From a virus: 60,809 nt of DNA. Below, in pieces: positions 46,013-56,783 of the stretch (its first letter is position 1; every line of letters starts with the position of its first letter). The notes beneath the pieces were generated by a model. It was given only the letters and a program-made list of their open reading frames with translations. It made no database searches and was not told the origin of the DNA. The stretch lies in IMG/VR virus record IMGVR_UViG_3300030118_007016, positions 1 to 60,809 of that record, one strand, 5' to 3'. Both the position numbers and the translations under genes were made by a program.

Positions 46013-46708
46013 TTACTCCATATCTGCTAAAGTTTCAATCCTATTATACAGTATGGGGCTAATGTTTGCAAGTATTTTTAAATCTTTGTATAGAAAATAT
46101 GCCTCAAAACCTCTGGCAAAGTATTCTCTGAGAGATGTAGCTGCATATGGTGAGTAAAACAATCCGTTAACATAAGAACTTAAACTTGGGTATCCTATAT
46201 CCATGTAAAGATATTCGTCAAAACTCTCGTCATAGTCCGGATTTCTAAAGAAATCAATGCTAACAACAGGTTCATCATATGCCATCAATATCTGGAAAAG
46301 TTTTTCTCTTTTTCCGAGAAACTCAGCTTCAACCCTTCCATCGCCGTAAATTTCATCATAATATTTTTCCTCCACTGCATGTGCAATCTCGTGAATAATA
46401 TCATCAGCCATATCCATAGCGTTGTCTTGTACATTAATAATGTAAATCGCACCATTTTCATATGCTGCGTTAGCTTGTCTTTCTTGAAAAAAAGAAAAGT
46501 CCCCAACATAGATTACATCTACATTAGAGACAAGGAAGGAAGGAAGTGAATTTTGTACTATTTTTATTACATCTTGTAGGCTGCTTTTGCCGTCTGTAAA
46601 GATTAGTTCATCTTTTATATAAACAGGTATTTTAGAACCAAATAAACTGTGGTGATTCATAGACTTAGATTTTTTTAAGCTTTCCCTTATGTAATCACTC
46701 TTGCTCAT
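46013..46708 (-). CDS. Zincin metallopeptidase resembling anthrax lethal factor catalytic domain
   Basis: I take the ATG at 46708 as the start; an upstream TTG (46744) would add 12 mostly basic residues. The active site is ADDIIHEIAHAVEEKY (HExxH; His118/His122 if numbered from the TTG). A downstream helix, SLREYFARGFEAYFLYKD, offers the glutamate third zinc ligand in the position seen in lethal-factor-like (ATLF) domains. FGSKIPVYIKDELIFTDGK and GDFSFFQERQANAAYENGAI match the region preceding HExxH in that group. No signal peptide, so it would act inside the host cell. Target unknown. Confidence 0.68.
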   Translation of the reverse strand: MSKSDYIRESLKKSKSMNHHSLFGSKIPVYIKDELIFTDGKSSLQDVIKIVQNSLPSFLVSNVDVIYVGDFSFFQERQANAAYENGAIYIINVQDNAMDMADDIIHEIAHAVEEKYYDEIYGDGRVEAEFLGKREKLFQILMAYDEPVVSIDFFRNPDYDESFDEYLYMDIGYPSLSSYVNGLFYSPYAATSLREYFARGFEAYFLYKDLKILANISPILYNRIETLADME

Positions 46709-46994
46709 TTTTTTCTTGTTCTTCTTCCCATGCTTTGCGACCAACTTCTACATCGCTAAGAGCCTGTTGATAACCTCTAATAAAGTTTTCTTCCGCAACA
46801 GCCAGAACAAACTCTGGGAATTCATCGGCTAGTTGTTCAACAATCATCTCTACTGTTACGTTGTCTCCATCTGGAGTTTGTTTTTCACCGACATAGTTGA
46901 CAAGCATTTTCTTCAACTCGTTAGTTGACTCGACAACTTCATCAAGAACTTCATTTGCATCTTCTACTTCTGTATTTTTAAACTCGATATCCAT
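46695..46994 (-). CDS. Acidic helical protein of unknown function, 99 aa
   Basis: True start is the ATG at 46994 with GGAGAAATA before it; the frame extends upstream only by reading through a tRNA gene. The product is acidic and helical (DIEFKNTEVEDANEVLDEVV, later WEEEQEKNEQE). A segment MIVEQLADEFPEFVLAVAEE is followed by FIRGYQQALSDVEVG. It overlaps the metallopeptidase start by 14 nt. No family is recognised. Transcription probably begins at the sigma70 promoter in front of the tRNA. Confidence 0.75.
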   Translation of the reverse strand: MDIEFKNTEVEDANEVLDEVVESTNELKKMLVNYVGEKQTPDGDNVTVEMIVEQLADEFPEFVLAVAEENFIRGYQQALSDVEVGRKAWEEEQEKNEQE

Positions 46995-49423: not shown

Positions 49424-49882
49424 TTATATAAGCTTATCTATTTCTTTGTTTGCATGATTAATTATAGATTTTTGAGCAGCCACTAACATATCACTATCTA
49501 TATCTTTTGCAGTGTCTCCCAAATCAAAAATAGGCTTTATACCAAGATAGCCACACACCTGTAGCTCTTCCTTGGGAAGAGATAGGCTAGTTGCAGATCC
49601 GCCGTTACCAAAATATGTCGGTCTTACTTCAAACAAGGCGAAAACCGCATCTCCCTCAGAGTCATCAAAAGAAATCACTTCAGATACATGCTCACATGCT
49701 TCTAACAAATCTTTTCTAGTTTCAAAATCAAACAAAAGATGACCCTTGTTTTTCACAACCCATTCATCACTATTTAAAGCTACAATTACTTTGCCGTATT
49801 TACTGGCAGCTTTGAAAAGTAATAAATGACCAACATGGAGGGGGTTAAACGCTCCGCTTACTAGGATTGTTTTTTCGCTCAT
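49424..49882 (-). CDS. HxGH-type cytidylyl/adenylyl-transferase-like, 152 aa
   Basis: The 152-residue protein begins ILVSGAFNPLHVGHLLLFKA with the HxGH nucleotide-binding motif, followed by VIVALNSDEWVVKNKG. The late ISSTxxR-like region is not obvious. This size and motif suit a RfaE/TagD- or NMNAT-like small nucleotidyltransferase transferring CMP or AMP to a phospho-acceptor. It overlaps the ClpP-like gene by 4 nt, and the stop is 3 nt from the tRNA-Leu gene. Substrate uncertain. Confidence 0.78.
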   Translation of the reverse strand: MSEKTILVSGAFNPLHVGHLLLFKAASKYGKVIVALNSDEWVVKNKGHLLFDFETRKDLLEACEHVSEVISFDDSEGDAVFALFEVRPTYFGNGGSATSLSLPKEELQVCGYLGIKPIFDLGDTAKDIDSDMLVAAQKSIINHANKEIDKLI

Positions 49883-50505
49883 GGGATAATAATATCATCA
49901 ACAAGACCATATTTTAAGCATGTCTTGGCATCCCACCATAAATCTCTTTTAAGAATATCTTTGATTTTTGATTTAGGTATTTTAGTGTGCTCTTCGTAGA
50001 TTCCGATGATCTTTTTCATCAACAACTCATTGTTTTTCATATCATCTTTCATCTCTTCAAACTTTCCCCACATGCCTGATGAAAGCTGGTGGATTAACAT
50101 AAAAGCGTGTTCGTGCATCAATCTCTCTTCAGCTACGACACTCATAATCGTAGCAGCAGATGCGGCGCAACCATCAATAATAGATACAACAGGGACTGGG
50201 CAGTTTTTAATATAATCTACTGATCCGAAACCCGAAAAAACAGAGCCTCCATAAGAATTAATATGTATATTCAATTTTGGAGGACACTCAAGCTTGTAAA
50301 GTTGCTGTATGTTGTAGAGTTTTTGTCCTGTTGAATAAATAAGCTTATTTAAAGTGAGATTGTCCTGCCTAGTTACACCAGAATAAAAATAAATTTTATT
50401 GTACTCTACAGAGACTCTGCTATCATCTGATGATCCAGCCATCATTGTTGGTCCCTCATTTTCTTCGCTTTCATCTTCTGCTTCTAAATGCCAGTATTTT
50501 CTCAT
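49879..50505 (-). CDS. ClpP-like serine protease
   Basis: Crotonase-fold ClpP protease with HINSYGGSVFSGFGSVDYI (oxyanion-strand region), nucleophile Ser116 in DGCAASAATIM, His139 in AFMLIHQLSS, and a possible Asp192 in DLWWDAKTCLK. The 208-residue length equals cellular ClpP. In phages, related proteins can be prohead proteases, but no portal or capsid gene is nearby. It may instead cooperate with host Clp ATPases. Start ATG at 50505 with AGAGG upstream, just after tRNA-Arg. Confidence 0.88.
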   Translation of the reverse strand: MRKYWHLEAEDESEENEGPTMMAGSSDDSRVSVEYNKIYFYSGVTRQDNLTLNKLIYSTGQKLYNIQQLYKLECPPKLNIHINSYGGSVFSGFGSVDYIKNCPVPVVSIIDGCAASAATIMSVVAEERLMHEHAFMLIHQLSSGMWGKFEEMKDDMKNNELLMKKIIGIYEEHTKIPKSKIKDILKRDLWWDAKTCLKYGLVDDIIIP

Positions 50506-50964: not shown

Positions 50965-50993
50965 ATTATAGCTTATATTTATTTAAGTTTCAA
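50965..50993 (-). promoter_or_regulatory. Sigma70-type promoter before CxxCH gene
   Basis: TTGAAA at 50988-50993, 17-bp spacer, TATAAT at 50965-50970 on the minus strand. The expected transcription start falls at or next to the ATG (50958), implying a leaderless or near-leaderless mRNA. Confidence 0.65.
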
Positions 50994-52130
50994 GAACTTT
51001 TTTAATTCTTCGATTCTTTTCTTTGGAGATTTTAGCCCACCAACGATTGTGTAGGCGACGAGTTTCTCTCTTTCTGGATCTTCGTAAATACCCCTGTGAA
51101 TGATTGCGCCCCCAGTTAATGTCGCTAATGTGTCAAATCCATATTCAATATTGTCCATTAGACCGGGGACGGTCTCATAAAGTACAGAACCTCCAACGAT
51201 AATTGAGGCGGCTCCTTTTGCAGAAGTTAAATCAAACCCGCTGGCAAGTAATGTTTTTTCAAGATTATTTCTAAGCCCCTGTGACACTGAAGTTGGACTT
51301 TCGGGGTCTTTGATTGTAGTGGCTCCGAAAATCATGCAACCTGCTGTTTTCATAATACTGTCATAATCTGCTGGATCAAACACAGTATAGTCAGAGTTTT
51401 TAGTGCACAAAAGATTAAAGATGTGAAATAGTCCGGCGACTGTATTGTTTAATGTTGGCCAAAACTGCTTTACAGTTAGTCGTGGATAAAGCTTTTTGAT
51501 TTTATCATTATCAATAATGACTAAAGGTGCAAAGTTTCCATTTTCAGCTTCTGCACAAAGCTCTGTCATTCTATTGTATGAATTTTCTGCCACTATTGGG
51601 GACGCACACTCTCCGCTAGTAGGTAATGATGCAATAACTCCTACTCTTTCACTAGGATTTTCTACTCCAATATAAGTAAAATATCTTTTTGCAGTGTCCA
51701 AAAGAGACATAACACTACCTCCTCCGGTTCCGCCCCCAACACCAACACAAATCAAGATACGGTCGATTTTGTCACCGAAAATCTCTTTGTATTTATTGAA
51801 AACTTCTTGACTTTTATCATCAAATGCTTGCTTTGAAACTGCATGATTTTTTCCAGCGCCGGATGCCCCATCATACACTAGATGATGTTTGTGGTTTTCT
51901 GGGAGACCTAAGTGATTTAAGTCCGATTTTGCTAGATTAAAAGCGATTGTCTTTCTGTATCCCAAATCAAAGAATGCTTTAGCCATGCGACCTCCGCCTT
52001 GACCAGATCCAACAATACCATATCGCAATGCTCCGCCGCTCTCATCTTCAACAAAATCTACTTTTGACTGTTCAATTTCTTCAATATCAATATCTTCAAT
52101 GTCTAAAGTAGGTAAGTTTAAATCATTCAT
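50979..52130 (-). CDS. Tubulin/FtsZ-like GTPase
   Basis: The 383-residue protein has RYGIVGSGQGGGRMAKAFFD (nucleotide-loop glycine motif), FNLAKSDLNHL, and VYDGASGAGKNH. The tubulin/FtsZ signature is GVGGGTGGGSVMSLLD (residues 130-145, compare GGGTGTG), with a T7-like DPADYDSIMK. The N-terminal 35 residues are acidic; the C-terminus ends in a basic tail (KSPKKRIEELKKFLKLK). A GTP-dependent filament-forming protein is inferred; phage tubulins such as PhuZ and TubZ position replicating DNA or partition plasmids. Sequence similarity to either group cannot be judged here. The ATG at 52130 has AGGAGATTGATAAA and an ACTATTTA element upstream. Confidence 0.82.
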   Translation of the reverse strand: MNDLNLPTLDIEDIDIEEIEQSKVDFVEDESGGALRYGIVGSGQGGGRMAKAFFDLGYRKTIAFNLAKSDLNHLGLPENHKHHLVYDGASGAGKNHAVSKQAFDDKSQEVFNKYKEIFGDKIDRILICVGVGGGTGGGSVMSLLDTAKRYFTYIGVENPSERVGVIASLPTSGECASPIVAENSYNRMTELCAEAENGNFAPLVIIDNDKIKKLYPRLTVKQFWPTLNNTVAGLFHIFNLLCTKNSDYTVFDPADYDSIMKTAGCMIFGATTIKDPESPTSVSQGLRNNLEKTLLASGFDLTSAKGAASIIVGGSVLYETVPGLMDNIEYGFDTLATLTGGAIIHRGIYEDPEREKLVAYTIVGGLKSPKKRIEELKKFLKLK

Positions 52131-53247: not shown

Positions 53248-53592
53248 ATGAAAAAAGATGAAAAAAATAAAAAAAGGTACAGTGTTATCAGGAAGTTAAG
53301 AAGAGATGGAAAGCTTTCTGAGGAAATGGAAATATTCGTCTCTAATCTGTCGCTGGAGGATCTTATTGCATTAAAACTAGAAATATCCAGCAAACCTGTA
53401 AATGGAAAATTGTTTGGCATACCAATATGGAAATCTATTCCCTTTATTGTTAGAGATGCCGTCTTAAAAACAGCTATTTCAGTTTGTAAAACCAAAGTTG
53501 ATGCAGCAAATTTGATTGGAATGGATGTCGATAAAATGGATAACTTATTGAAAAAATACAATACAATAGGTTTTTTTGAAGAAAACAGTTGA
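53248..53592 (+). CDS. Small HTH (Fis-like) DNA-binding protein, 114 aa
   Basis: Very basic N-terminus (MKKDEKNKKRYSVIRKLRRD), then a conserved helix block GKLSEEMEIFVSNLSLEDL, then IALKLEISSKPVNGKLFGIP. The C-terminal segment DAVLKTAISVCKTKVDAANL plus IGMDVDKMDNLLKKY is a Fis-type helix-turn-helix. I have seen closely similar small proteins in marine T4-like phages, with no function known. The start is ATG 53248; the opposite strand holds only a shadow. It is the first gene of the plus-strand block. Its stop at 53592 overlaps the next promoter's -35 element. Confidence 0.72.
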   Translation: MKKDEKNKKRYSVIRKLRRDGKLSEEMEIFVSNLSLEDLIALKLEISSKPVNGKLFGIPIWKSIPFIVRDAVLKTAISVCKTKVDAANLIGMDVDKMDNLLKKYNTIGFFEENS

Positions 53593-53616
53593 CAAAATGC
53601 AACATTTAGTTATAGT
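53589..53616 (+). promoter_or_regulatory. Sigma70-type promoter before tmRNA region
   Basis: TTGACA at 53589-53594, 16-bp spacer, TATAGT at 53611-53616. It overlaps the stop of the HTH gene. The transcript would include the structured segment and the tmRNA. Confidence 0.7.
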
Positions 53617-53832
53617 TATATAACATCACTGGCTAAAACAGTGTAATAATAGTGATGTCTATAACTTAGGAGATTCCCTTCAAAGCCCTTAACGAAGGGA
53701 TCCGCTTGGGCGGTAAACTGTTGAAGAAGGGATAACAAGACGGCAATGTGAGAAAACCGTTCATTTTTTTAGCCAAATATAGTGCCCCCTCGTTGGCTTA
53801 GGATGGCGAGGGGGCGAAGTTCTTTGAAATAC
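53617..53832 (+). ncRNA. Structured leader or small RNA of unknown type
   Basis: A 216-nt stretch without a credible gene. ACATCACT (53623) can pair with AGTGATGT (53651), while CACTG (53627) can pair with CAGTG (53639) instead. Two CCCTT blocks (53676, 53686) face two GAAGGG blocks (53694, 53726). ACGG/CCGT (53739/53757) can form another stem. A GC-rich 9-bp hairpin, GCCCCCTCG/CGAGGGGGC (53784-53815), precedes the tmRNA and may be a processing or pausing site. It is not T-rich downstream, so it is not a normal terminator. I recognise no known RNA class. Confidence 0.45.
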
Positions 53833-54155
53833 GGGGGTGTACAGGTTTCGACTGGGTAATGAAACTAATGTGTGCAAGGCAGAGGGCAGCGACGGTCTCT
53901 GTAAAAACGCTGAAACTAATAAGTGCTAATACTGACACTTACTCTGAATACGCACTAGCTGCGTAATCGGGGGTAGCCATACCTTCTAAACCAAAATGGC
54001 GTATGGTTTCTCATTTCCTAAAAATGAGTGGTGCGAAAGAAGGCTAAGCGGAAAATAAATTGTCTGTGTTATTTTCCAGTATTCTACAGACTAACCTTGT
54101 GAACGACTCATTGGCAGAGTTATTTAGGACGGGGGTTCGATTCCCCCCACCTCCA
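53833..54155 (+). ncRNA. ssrA: Transfer-messenger RNA (tmRNA, ssrA), tag ANTDTYSEYALAA
   Basis: The 5' end GGGGGTGTACAGGTTTCGACTG and the 3' end CACCTCCA form the tRNA-like acceptor; the T arm is GGGGG-TTCGATT-CCCCC. The resume codon is GCT at 53925 and the tag frame reads ANTDTYSEYALAA with TAA at 53964-53966, ending in the usual ALAA degron. Discriminator A is at 54155; CCA is not encoded (CTA follows). The length of 323 nt is typical of a one-piece bacterial tmRNA. It rescues stalled ribosomes by tagging incomplete proteins for ClpXP/ClpAP. Confidence 0.97.
53925..53966 (+). other. tmRNA tag-peptide reading frame
   Basis: Fourteen codons including stop encode ANTDTYSEYALAA. The ALAA end is the proteolysis signal recognised by ClpX/ClpA; internal Glu and Tyr resemble many proteobacterial tags (compare ANDENYALAA). 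Confidence 0.95.
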
Positions 54156-54176
54156 CTAACTTTTAAATTAATGTGA

Positions 54177-54184
54177 ACTATTTA
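54177..54184 (+). promoter_or_regulatory. ACTATTTA promoter-like motif before 54190 gene
   Basis: ACTATTTA followed by CC lies only 5 nt before the ATG at 54190 and in its direction. If it is a -10 element the transcript would be leaderless. Confidence 0.4.
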
Positions 54185-54189
54185 CCACT

Positions 54190-55326
54190 ATGAACAACCC
54201 ACACAAAAACTGGCAAAAATTTCTTATAAATGAAGCAGGATTAAATAAAATCAGACAAGATATGCTTGACTATGATACTGCTTTTATTACAGCATTTCGT
54301 GGCAATATAGATGACAAATCTATGTGCGTTTATGTGCCCCCATCCGAAGAAGAGCTTTCTGAAAGAGACAAGATGGGCAAAAGAGGCGAGACTAATAAAA
54401 GAAACAATAAAGAACTCTCAGCCTTCCTTCTTAGTCAAGGTTATGGTGTTAAGAATGTTCAAGGATCTTACATTGAAAACTTTGGTTCAATAGACCCAGA
54501 AAAAGTGCCAAGAGAGGTAAAAGAGGCTAGTTTCTTTGTAACTAACCTAAATGGTGACCCAGAGTTTGCAGAGCAAATAATTAACCTTGGTAAAAGATTT
54601 TGTCAAGATTCAGTTATCATTGTACCAAAAGGTGAAGAGGGTTACATTTACGGAACAAACAATGGTAAATATCCGGGATTGGATCAAAAAGAGACAGTTG
54701 GTAAGTTTGCAGGTGGCGAAAGAGGCGAGTTCATGTCTCGTATTGGTGGACGACCCTTTGTTATGAAAGAGGATGAAGAGACTAAAACTTACGAAGATCT
54801 ACCCGGAAAACAAAGACAAGCGGCGAAACTAATAGCACAAAGAGTTGATAGAGAAATCAACGAAATGCACATGGTTTATAACTTAAATGAAGCAGACCTA
54901 CCTGCATATGACAACAATGGAAAAGTAACACTTTATCATTATGCACCAGTTGAAGCTGATGAAATAGAAGTTGATCCATCTCAATTCGGAAAACAAAGAT
55001 ACTCTAGAAGAGAGAAAGAAAGATCAACTTACCCTCGCTCATTCTTTTATGTTAACCTTGATCAAGCAGAGTCTGAAGTAAAATCAGGAAAGCACCTTTT
55101 TACACTTGACATTCCAACTAACAAGTTGTATAGTATAAAAAACGATCCTGATGGTCTTATGAAATCTATTAGGCACCCAACATATGGCTTTAGAAACGAT
55201 ATCGAATGGACTGAGCTTTTTAAAGAAATACACAAAGATTATCTTGGTGCTTATTATTCCACTCCCTCTATGGATCTTGTGGTTCTTTTTGAACCAGTTA
55301 AAGCGAATAAAATGGAGCAAGAATGA
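54190..55326 (+). CDS. DUF3293-like / putative ADP-ribosyltransferase-like two-part protein
   Basis: The first 25 residues (MNNPHKNWQKFLINEAG) carry a KFLxNE motif that I know from marine phage proteins. Residues 25-160 fit DUF3293: DTAFITAFRGN, NKELSAFLLSQGYGVKNVQG, EASFFVTN, and FCQDSVIIVPKGEEG. Residues about 240-378 have VTLYHYAPVEADEIEVDPSQ, FGKQRYSRREKERSTYPRSF and NKLYSIKNDP, then LGAYYSTPSMDLVVLFEPV. This LYHYxP and final ALF/VLFEP pattern resembles uncharacterised phage ART-type proteins. ART activity is not demonstrated. The stop overlaps the next start (ATGA). Confidence 0.6.
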   Translation: MNNPHKNWQKFLINEAGLNKIRQDMLDYDTAFITAFRGNIDDKSMCVYVPPSEEELSERDKMGKRGETNKRNNKELSAFLLSQGYGVKNVQGSYIENFGSIDPEKVPREVKEASFFVTNLNGDPEFAEQIINLGKRFCQDSVIIVPKGEEGYIYGTNNGKYPGLDQKETVGKFAGGERGEFMSRIGGRPFVMKEDEETKTYEDLPGKQRQAAKLIAQRVDREINEMHMVYNLNEADLPAYDNNGKVTLYHYAPVEADEIEVDPSQFGKQRYSRREKERSTYPRSFFYVNLDQAESEVKSGKHLFTLDIPTNKLYSIKNDPDGLMKSIRHPTYGFRNDIEWTELFKEIHKDYLGAYYSTPSMDLVVLFEPVKANKMEQE

Positions 55327-55606: not shown

Positions 55607-55681
55607 TGCGGAGTAGCACAATGGTAGTGCAATCGGCTGTTAACCGATAGGTTGTAGGTTCGAGTCCTACCTCCGCAGCCA
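55607..55681 (+). tRNA. tRNA-Asn (GUU)
   Basis: A 75-nt cloverleaf: acceptor TGCGGAG/CTCCGCA, D arm GCAC/GTGC, anticodon loop CTGTTAA, T arm GTAGG/CCTAC with TTCGAGT, discriminator G, encoded CCA. GUU reads AAC and AAU. The 5' end is U rather than G, unusual but a good pair with A72. Confidence 0.95.
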
Positions 55682-55702: not shown

Positions 55703-55731
55703 TTGACATACACCTTGATTTTTGATACGCT
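55703..55731 (+). promoter_or_regulatory. Sigma70-type promoter before methylase gene
   Basis: TTGACA at 55703-55708, 17-bp spacer, TACGCT at 55726-55731 with an extended TGA just before it. The start would be about 40 nt before the ATG at 55776. Confidence 0.5.
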
Positions 55732-55775
55732 ATCAATCTATAGCACATATTTTTATCTTTAAAGGAAGGGATGAA

Positions 55776-56783
55776 ATGAAGCCATTATTTATGTGGGCAG
55801 GTGGTAAAAGTAAATTAATCAAGCACTATAAGCCACATCTGCCTAAAGAGTTCGATTCTTATCATGAACCATTTTTTGGCGGTGGGGCAATGTTTATCTG
55901 GGCTTACGAACAGAATCCAAACGCTAGCTTTTATATTAATGATGTGAATCCTCACATTGTTCAAATATACAAAGCTATCCGAGATGATGTCGAGCAATTC
56001 TGCAACATAATGGATACTTTTGAAAAGGCATACCTATCTTTAGATCCTCCCAAGAAAAAACAAATAATCGAAGGCAAAACCCAATGGGTTGATCATCCTA
56101 CAGGAGCTAAAGATGCAAAGCTTGAAAAGATGTATAAGTTGCCAAAAAATAAATATGATTGGGATAAAATATATCAACAAAAGCCAACGAGGAGATCTTT
56201 CTTTTTTAAAGTTAGGAAGTCTTACCAAGAAGAATATGAAACTTGGGAAACTACAAAAGAAGCAGCCATTTTGTATTTCTTAATGAAAACAGCGTTTAAT
56301 GGTGTATGGCAAGTTGGCAAAGGGCATGGAAGGTTTAATACTCCATGTGGACTGATGAGGCATACAGATAGCATATATGATAAGGAAAATGTATTAAAAT
56401 GGAGTAAGGCACTACAGGGTGCCACAATAACATCTTTAGACTTCAAAGATACTATTAACAATGTCGGAGAAAACTCGTATACTTTTCTAGATCCTCCGTA
56501 CAGAAGTGCATCGGATGAAGAAAAAACTTTTGCAGATTATGGAACTAATCTAGAAGATGAATTTCAAGAAACGGTTATAGACTTTTTTATGAGTGCAAAA
56601 GATAGAGGATCTTATGTTTTACTATCCAATAGAGATTGGGGAGATGGATTCTTTGAAGATAGAAGTAATGGAAATAAAGTAGAATATTTTGACGTTACTT
56701 ACACTGTGGGCAGGAAAAAACAAAATGATAATGGAGAACACTCAGCCACAAAAGCTAGAGAGATATTAATGGTAAGCGAATGA
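55776..56783 (+). CDS. dam: D12-class adenine-N6 DNA methyltransferase (Dam-like)
   Basis: The ATG at 55776 is chosen because AGGAAGGG precedes it; an earlier start in the frame lacks a site. The product (335 residues) begins MKPLFMWAGGKSKLIKHY, the SAM-binding FxGGK motif, followed by PFFGGGAMFIWAYEQNPN and FYINDVNPHIVQIYKAI. The catalytic motif IV is SYTFLDPPYRSASD near residue 238. FNGVWQVGKGHGRFNTPCG is the Dam-family FN-x-RxN loop equivalent. Such enzymes methylate adenine, protecting phage DNA from restriction or timing expression. Recognition site unknown. Confidence 0.88.
   Translation: MKPLFMWAGGKSKLIKHYKPHLPKEFDSYHEPFFGGGAMFIWAYEQNPNASFYINDVNPHIVQIYKAIRDDVEQFCNIMDTFEKAYLSLDPPKKKQIIEGKTQWVDHPTGAKDAKLEKMYKLPKNKYDWDKIYQQKPTRRSFFFKVRKSYQEEYETWETTKEAAILYFLMKTAFNGVWQVGKGHGRFNTPCGLMRHTDSIYDKENVLKWSKALQGATITSLDFKDTINNVGENSYTFLDPPYRSASDEEKTFADYGTNLEDEFQETVIDFFMSAKDRGSYVLLSNRDWGDGFFEDRSNGNKVEYFDVTYTVGRKKQNDNGEHSATKAREILMVSE

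Follow-up and report, generated by a model that had tools for sequence, protein, structure and literature searches.

The DNA analysed here (the window) is a virus record of 60,809 bases, possibly a fragment, in which a tmRNA gene lies behind a small Fis-like gene, with a promoter and a structured RNA between them. The features of the locus are:

53248..53592 (+), Fis-like gene, a small protein of 114 aa with a predicted Fis fold (HTH_8 in family members; AlphaFold model)
53589..53616 (+), sigma70-like promoter TTGACA-N16-TATAGT (conserved at the same position in relatives)
53630..53775 (+), structured RNA element, a leader or companion RNA (single-sequence fold; covariance model)
53783..53816 (+), 13-bp GC-rich hairpin, terminator- or processing-like (conserved in close relatives)
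53818..53829 (+), boxA-like motif AGTTCTTTGAAA, with 3 nt between it and the 5' end of the tmRNA
53833..54155 (+), one-piece tmRNA (ssrA), 3' CCA not encoded (ARAGORN, cmscan, alignment with relatives)
53925..53966 (+), tag reading frame ANTDTYSEYALAA plus TAA (ARAGORN; identical tag in four further contigs)
54190..55326 (+), downstream gene of 378 aa, S-adenosylmethionine lyase-like in its N-terminal part (PF23780, 8.6e-8)
55607..55681 (+), tRNA-Asn(GTT) (ARAGORN; kept in most close relatives)

A complete one-piece tmRNA had been proposed from the letters of the DNA (the sequence-only reading), with an Infernal search as a check, and both programs bear this out. ARAGORN calls a one-piece tmRNA at 53833-54156 (+) with the tag ANTDTYSEYALAA, and cmscan matches RF00023 at 53833-54158 with 136.7 bits (E 2.2e-53; gathering score 47) over the whole model (1-374). 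The acceptor stem, read directly from the sequence, is GGGGGUG/CACCUCC followed by the discriminator A, and contains the alanine identity pair G3.U70. The encoded 3' end is A-CTA (CTA at 54156-54158), whereas three aligned close relatives encode A-CCA; the window copy is alone among them without an encoded CCA, which would therefore need addition or repair by the host. The tag frame runs from GCT to TAA, the tag ending in a ClpX-type signal just before the stop. As the sequence-only reading remarked, phage tmRNAs are known yet uncommon: such genes have been reported in 402 of 18,146 phage genomes, or about 2.3% (PMC9004378). The tmRNA is of a known kind; its context is new.

The surrounding block is that of a phage, as was first supposed, phage-type genes flanking the tmRNA. 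The window encodes a gp6-like baseplate protein resembling annotated phage baseplate wedge proteins (~30% identical to proteins of Microcystis, Flavobacterium and uncultured huge phages), a PhoH-like protein, and tRNAs for Met, Leu, Arg and Asn (ARAGORN). On the same strand 3' of the tmRNA follow the lyase-like gene, a small ORF, tRNA-Asn and a D12-class adenine methyltransferase (55722-56783, +), the last with no relative in the fetched parts of four close contigs. The lyase-like gene, whose C-terminal half has no assignment, is a possible anti-restriction early gene. On the other strand are a tubulin/FtsZ-like protein (50979-52130; PF00091, 1.8e-7) with a TubZ-like C-terminal part, which found no match by tblastn among 50,697 phage records and so gave no link to known phages, and a putative zinc metallopeptidase (46013-46744) with an HEIAH motif and a sub-threshold Pfam match. 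Four kilobases from the tmRNA there is also a ClpP-like protease (49879-50505, -; PF00574, 1.1e-26); its best PHROG matches are head maturation proteases, so that its connection with tag degradation is speculative.

Four contigs of 72-113 kb carry the identical tag and the same neighbours as the window, the lyase-like gene adjoining the tmRNA in all of them. Since the arrangement recurs in these four independent contigs, the objection that it might be the product of a contig join is ruled out. The tmRNA is 95-97% identical between the window and these contigs, whereas in the same five phages the adjacent lyase-like gene reaches just 47-63% identity at its fourfold-degenerate sites, which points to strong purifying selection on the RNA. 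Among the close relatives its mRNA-like part is conserved as well as the remainder. From such comparisons we hold with high confidence that the window tmRNA is under selection and would be functional.

The comparison of the tag with those of candidate hosts, from which a host had been hoped for, gave none: the degenerate codon pattern of the tag was absent from genome_contigs (about 85,000 species). A 5'-end pattern reached many Clostridia and Betaproteobacteria, whose tmRNAs were similar at the tRNA-like ends only; in 297 genomes of one phylum the matches were confined to the T-arm; and a search for the host by phage DNA similarity gave tRNA matches only. These results bear on the idea that the gene is a functionless remnant of prophage integration into a host ssrA, or was recently captured from a host. 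The ssrA gene is a known integration site, fragments of which occur in prophages (PMC9004378). Here, however, the gene is full-length, at a conserved locus and under purifying selection, no tyrosine integrase was found in 11 related records, the tag is missing from the species genomes searched, and likeness to bacterial tmRNAs is confined to the tRNA-like ends; we consider such an origin very improbable.

No smpB was found in the five close records (0/5) or in another 18 related records, 100-203 kb long (0/18), positive controls being detected. The absence first noted in the window thus holds for all 23 related records, though all may be incomplete; host SmpB would be needed, or smpB may sit in an unsequenced part.

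The Fis-like gene has 258 relatives in viral_contigs (IMG/VR), and the best 80 of these 258 loci were analysed. A same-strand tmRNA lies 3' of the gene in 63 of the 80 (ARAGORN and Rfam; the count takes in L282, whose tmRNA sits outside the fetched locus on the same contig), or in 38 of 49 clusters at about 80% protein identity, with gaps of -33 to 1661 nt. The other 17 of the 80, some of them incomplete, have no tmRNA near the Fis-like gene, so that the link is not absolute; two carry one elsewhere in the contig. The module loci have 29 distinct tags, of which 28 begin with AN and all end in AA (most in LAA) with an in-frame stop. The ends are thus constrained while the middle changes freely. 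Every relative read has a TCCA acceptor end with G3.U70, and together with the constrained tags this argues that the tRNA and mRNA functions are both under constraint. The tmRNA and the Fis-like gene have the look of a module long retained by phages, rather than of a gene strayed from a host.

These tags weigh against a second explanation, that the RNA is a decoy for SmpB or the ribosome, its tRNA-like domain titrating SmpB and blocking host rescue, the tag frame being irrelevant. A phage RNA with only a tmRNA-like domain has been recorded in mycobacteriophage DS6A, a molecule similar to it is reported to inhibit tmRNA (PMC4131195), and some of the present relatives have tmRNAs of just 240-250 nt. 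A decoy is nevertheless improbable, for the window and its relatives have an intact tag frame, the tag ends hold throughout the set as counted above, and the mRNA-like part is conserved like the remainder in the close relatives. Overall we think it quite likely that a distinct group of large uncultured tailed phages maintains by selection a functional tmRNA, in a module consisting of Fis-like gene, promoter, in some loci a structured RNA, and tmRNA.

The Fis-like gene lies directly upstream of the tmRNA, its stop codon overlapping the -35 hexamer of the promoter. PF02954 HTH_8 (Fis family) matches 16 of 60 family members, the best at 4.8e-5, the window copy not among them; at the usual thresholds this copy falls into no Pfam or PHROG family, and two other members gave no PHROG match. 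An AlphaFold model built from a 60-row alignment has a pLDDT of 85.8, and the 19 best PDB matches in a fold search with it are all Fis, with weak E-values of about 0.4 and prob ≤0.97. We name the protein Fis-like and not Fis, its full-length membership of that family being tentative. E. coli Fis is a nucleoid protein and an activator of stable-RNA promoters. The phage protein resembles it in the C-terminal long helix and helix-turn-helix; it differs in its N-terminal part and in a conserved acidic-aromatic tail after the helix-turn-helix, often FFEE or YFEE. Its size and this tail had also suggested a late-transcription coactivator like T4 gp33, which is kept as no more than a tentative lead, since the fold search pointed to Fis.

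A site such as TTGACA-N16-TATAGT is by itself no rarer than chance (1 found against 1.4 expected), and the promoter call is supported by its conservation at the same place in relatives. The promoter read earlier for the tmRNA therefore stands as a conserved site; the strong early expression deduced from it does not, a sigma70-like site being just compatible with host polymerase. The sequence-only reading had the tmRNA, the promoter and the missing smpB right, and overlooked the Fis-like gene and the pseudoknotted RNA. In the window clade the 13-bp hairpin sits between this RNA and the tmRNA; a plain intrinsic terminator was rejected there, its T tract being weak. About half of the distinct loci have a motif like TGTTCTTTAAAA that ends 1-4 nt before the tmRNA begins. 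We take it to resemble the boxA of rRNA leaders, and the resemblance would suggest antitermination on an untranslated transcript.

The pseudoknotted RNA occurs between the Fis-like gene and the tmRNA in 36 loci, as well as in the window, where its parts are:

53630-53638/53767-53775 (+), outer helix P0 (single-sequence fold; judged by eye across relatives)
53675..53700 (+), hairpin P1, TCCCTTC / 12-nt loop / GAAGGGA (leader comparison, 30-sequence alignment)
53685..53690 (+), pseudoknot 5' strand GCCCTT, within the P1 loop, the partner of AAGGGA at 53727-53732
53727..53732 (+), pseudoknot 3' strand AAGGGA, then TAACA (TAGCA in most relatives)
53739..53761 (+), hairpin P2, GACGG / CCGTT (leader comparison)

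The window leader folds better than its shuffles (z -3.2, single-sequence fold). The common architecture is P0, P1 with its 12-nt loop, a pseudoknot formed from loop positions 4-9, TAGCA and P2, and a hairpin forms at the P2 site in nearly all relatives despite changes of letters. Aligned with MAFFT, 30 sequences have 93.6% of their P1 and pseudoknot cells paired, and 10 of 11 pairs change on both sides, including all six of the pseudoknot. The covariation score of 0.508 compares with a shuffle mean of 0.182 and was reached by none of 500 shuffles (kinship among the sequences uncorrected); slid controls gave ≤0.211. Pairing was partly a consideration in choosing the loci, but the alignment was made without fitting to it.

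A covariance model, R1, built from the same alignment (five P1 pairs plus sequence), matches the window, itself a training sequence, at 53674-53761 with 55.3 bits. Its matches at E<1e-3, in 35 of the 80 loci and in the window, L276, L277 and L217 (the contig of L339), all lie 3' of Fis-like genes. Most of these are training sequences or their kin, so that the matches speak for specificity of place and are not an independent count. A weaker copy in L313 (E 0.1) was recognised by eye. In 80 bacterial loci the model's best E was no lower than 0.3, and about 95 other viral loci gave nothing convincing, L217 excepted. Rfam 15 has no credible match for the leader of the window or of L338, the best falling far below gathering scores, and a glutamine or other known riboswitch was accordingly rejected. 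We have little doubt that the element is a real structured RNA.

Whether it regulates the tmRNA is evenly balanced. It could be an independent small RNA, or the 3' UTR of the Fis-like gene, beside a genuine tmRNA that it does not control. The element does follow Fis-like genes that have no nearby tmRNA (L276, L277, L351, L352, L358), a T run comes after its outer helix in L276, and some loci have an ORF, a tRNA or a further TATAAT-like site between the element and the tmRNA. Against this, a search of 53560-54200 in the window clade revealed no further promoter between the two, which should therefore share one transcript there, and the window outer helix has no clear T run after it; independence is a serious possibility, to be put somewhat short of even. 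Several loci that have no element carry TTGACA and TATAAT-like hexamers directly before the tmRNA.

From what is observed, namely the RNA with its features and conservation, the module and the covarying element, we infer how the tmRNA may be transcribed, processed, timed and put to work, and how the element may control its output. Host RNA polymerase would make a precursor from the promoter upstream. Its 5' leader with the pseudoknotted element would be removed, normally by RNase P, and its 3' end trimmed and given CCA by the host. Host AlaRS would then charge the tmRNA via G3.U70, and host SmpB and EF-Tu would bring it to ribosomes stalled on broken mRNAs, which would be freed, their products tagged with ANTDTYSEYALAA for ClpXP-type proteolysis. 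The benefit may be that ribosomes stay available while phage or host-defence nucleases cut mRNA. Protection against translation-targeting defence could be a further gain; phage tRNAs have been reported to be of help against it (PMC10264068, PMC11555353). Tentatively, the element may be a new class of regulatory RNA (an attenuator, an antitermination element or a ligand sensor) which, with the Fis-like protein and the boxA-like site, tunes a phage rescue RNA, the tmRNA gene having taken in a protein-coding gene in one sub-branch; taken as a whole, this reading is possible but less likely than not.

In fold, G3.U70, resume Ala codon and ALAA-ending tag the window tmRNA is like bacterial ssrA; it is unlike it in its tag pattern and in all but the tRNA-like ends in the bacterial sets searched. 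The tmRNAs of mycobacteriophage Bxz1 and its relatives, Wildcat and Bacillus phage G are one-piece. Like the window, these phages carry a complete tmRNA in the genome (PMC4131195); the window copy differs in its tag, in its module with a Fis-like gene and a structured RNA, and in belonging to uncultured phages, and its gene has no DNA match in 50,697 phage records. One analogue is known for a phage tmRNA in the neighbourhood of a riboswitch and a transcription factor, namely Melnitz, in which a two-piece tmRNA, a glutamine riboswitch and a transcription coactivator gene form one operon (PMC9004378). The Melnitz-type marine phages are alike in having a tmRNA reported near an early promoter (PMC9004378), a structured RNA in the tmRNA unit and a small transcription-factor-like gene beside it. 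In contrast to theirs, the window tmRNA is one-piece and not two-piece (permuted), its neighbour gene is Fis-like and upstream, with no match in phage records, and neither glnA nor Downstream-peptide RNA is found at E≤5 in the leader of the window or of L338.

In the literature, coverage of which was incomplete, we found no link between a tmRNA and a Fis-like gene, nor this one-piece module of uncultured phages, with its Fis-like family and unlisted pseudoknotted RNA, described; these we regard as new. The structured RNA and the Fis-like family would be new entries, being absent from Rfam and PHROGs as searched. The module bears on the question of why phages carry tmRNA: the conserved neighbourhood, the purifying selection, the changing tags with fixed ends and the covarying RNA speak for a phage function that is active and regulated, and against the RNA being a passenger. 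Differences among the tags bear on whether phage rescue products are handled unlike those of the host.

Among the relatives, five loci have tmRNA genes of 471-482 nt (L312:6028-6509, L321:2865-3339, L340:1622-2102, L341:4620-5090, L343:1500-1973). Each contains an ORF of 63-69 codons with a strong AGGAGG ribosome site, placed between the post-tag part and the 3' tRNA-like half. It reads MSEN...GYEIR.GLL...FVQKKD and varies by whole codons; two copies searched gave no PHROG match. These genes are either tmRNA genes with a protein gene nested inside or unpermuted split tmRNAs. The same branch includes very short tmRNAs of about 237-250 nt (L320, L327, L328, L329, L337, L348), with tags such as ANDNVALPMAA. 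In L325 and L330 a small ORF reading ...KDESGATTIEYG... lies between the Fis-like gene and the tmRNA; it resembles a Flp-type pilin.

Other viral loci gave tmRNA calls by ARAGORN only with unusual long tags (L163, L188, L202, L214, L266, L197, L263, L247), several without an ALAA end (GNTFAKLQAVGLLRTEEVTVA, ANNNTEIVMVHPALIAALEGAAA, ANEQFVEEEADMSEFVGMDSFQPLAMAA). Five viral contigs (L138, L139, L141, L143, L145) gave two-piece calls with tags such as ANDEVYALAA, ANDELFAIAA and ANDEVFALAA, which resemble the betaproteobacterial ANDERFALAA and ANDEQFAIAA of the bacterial loci.
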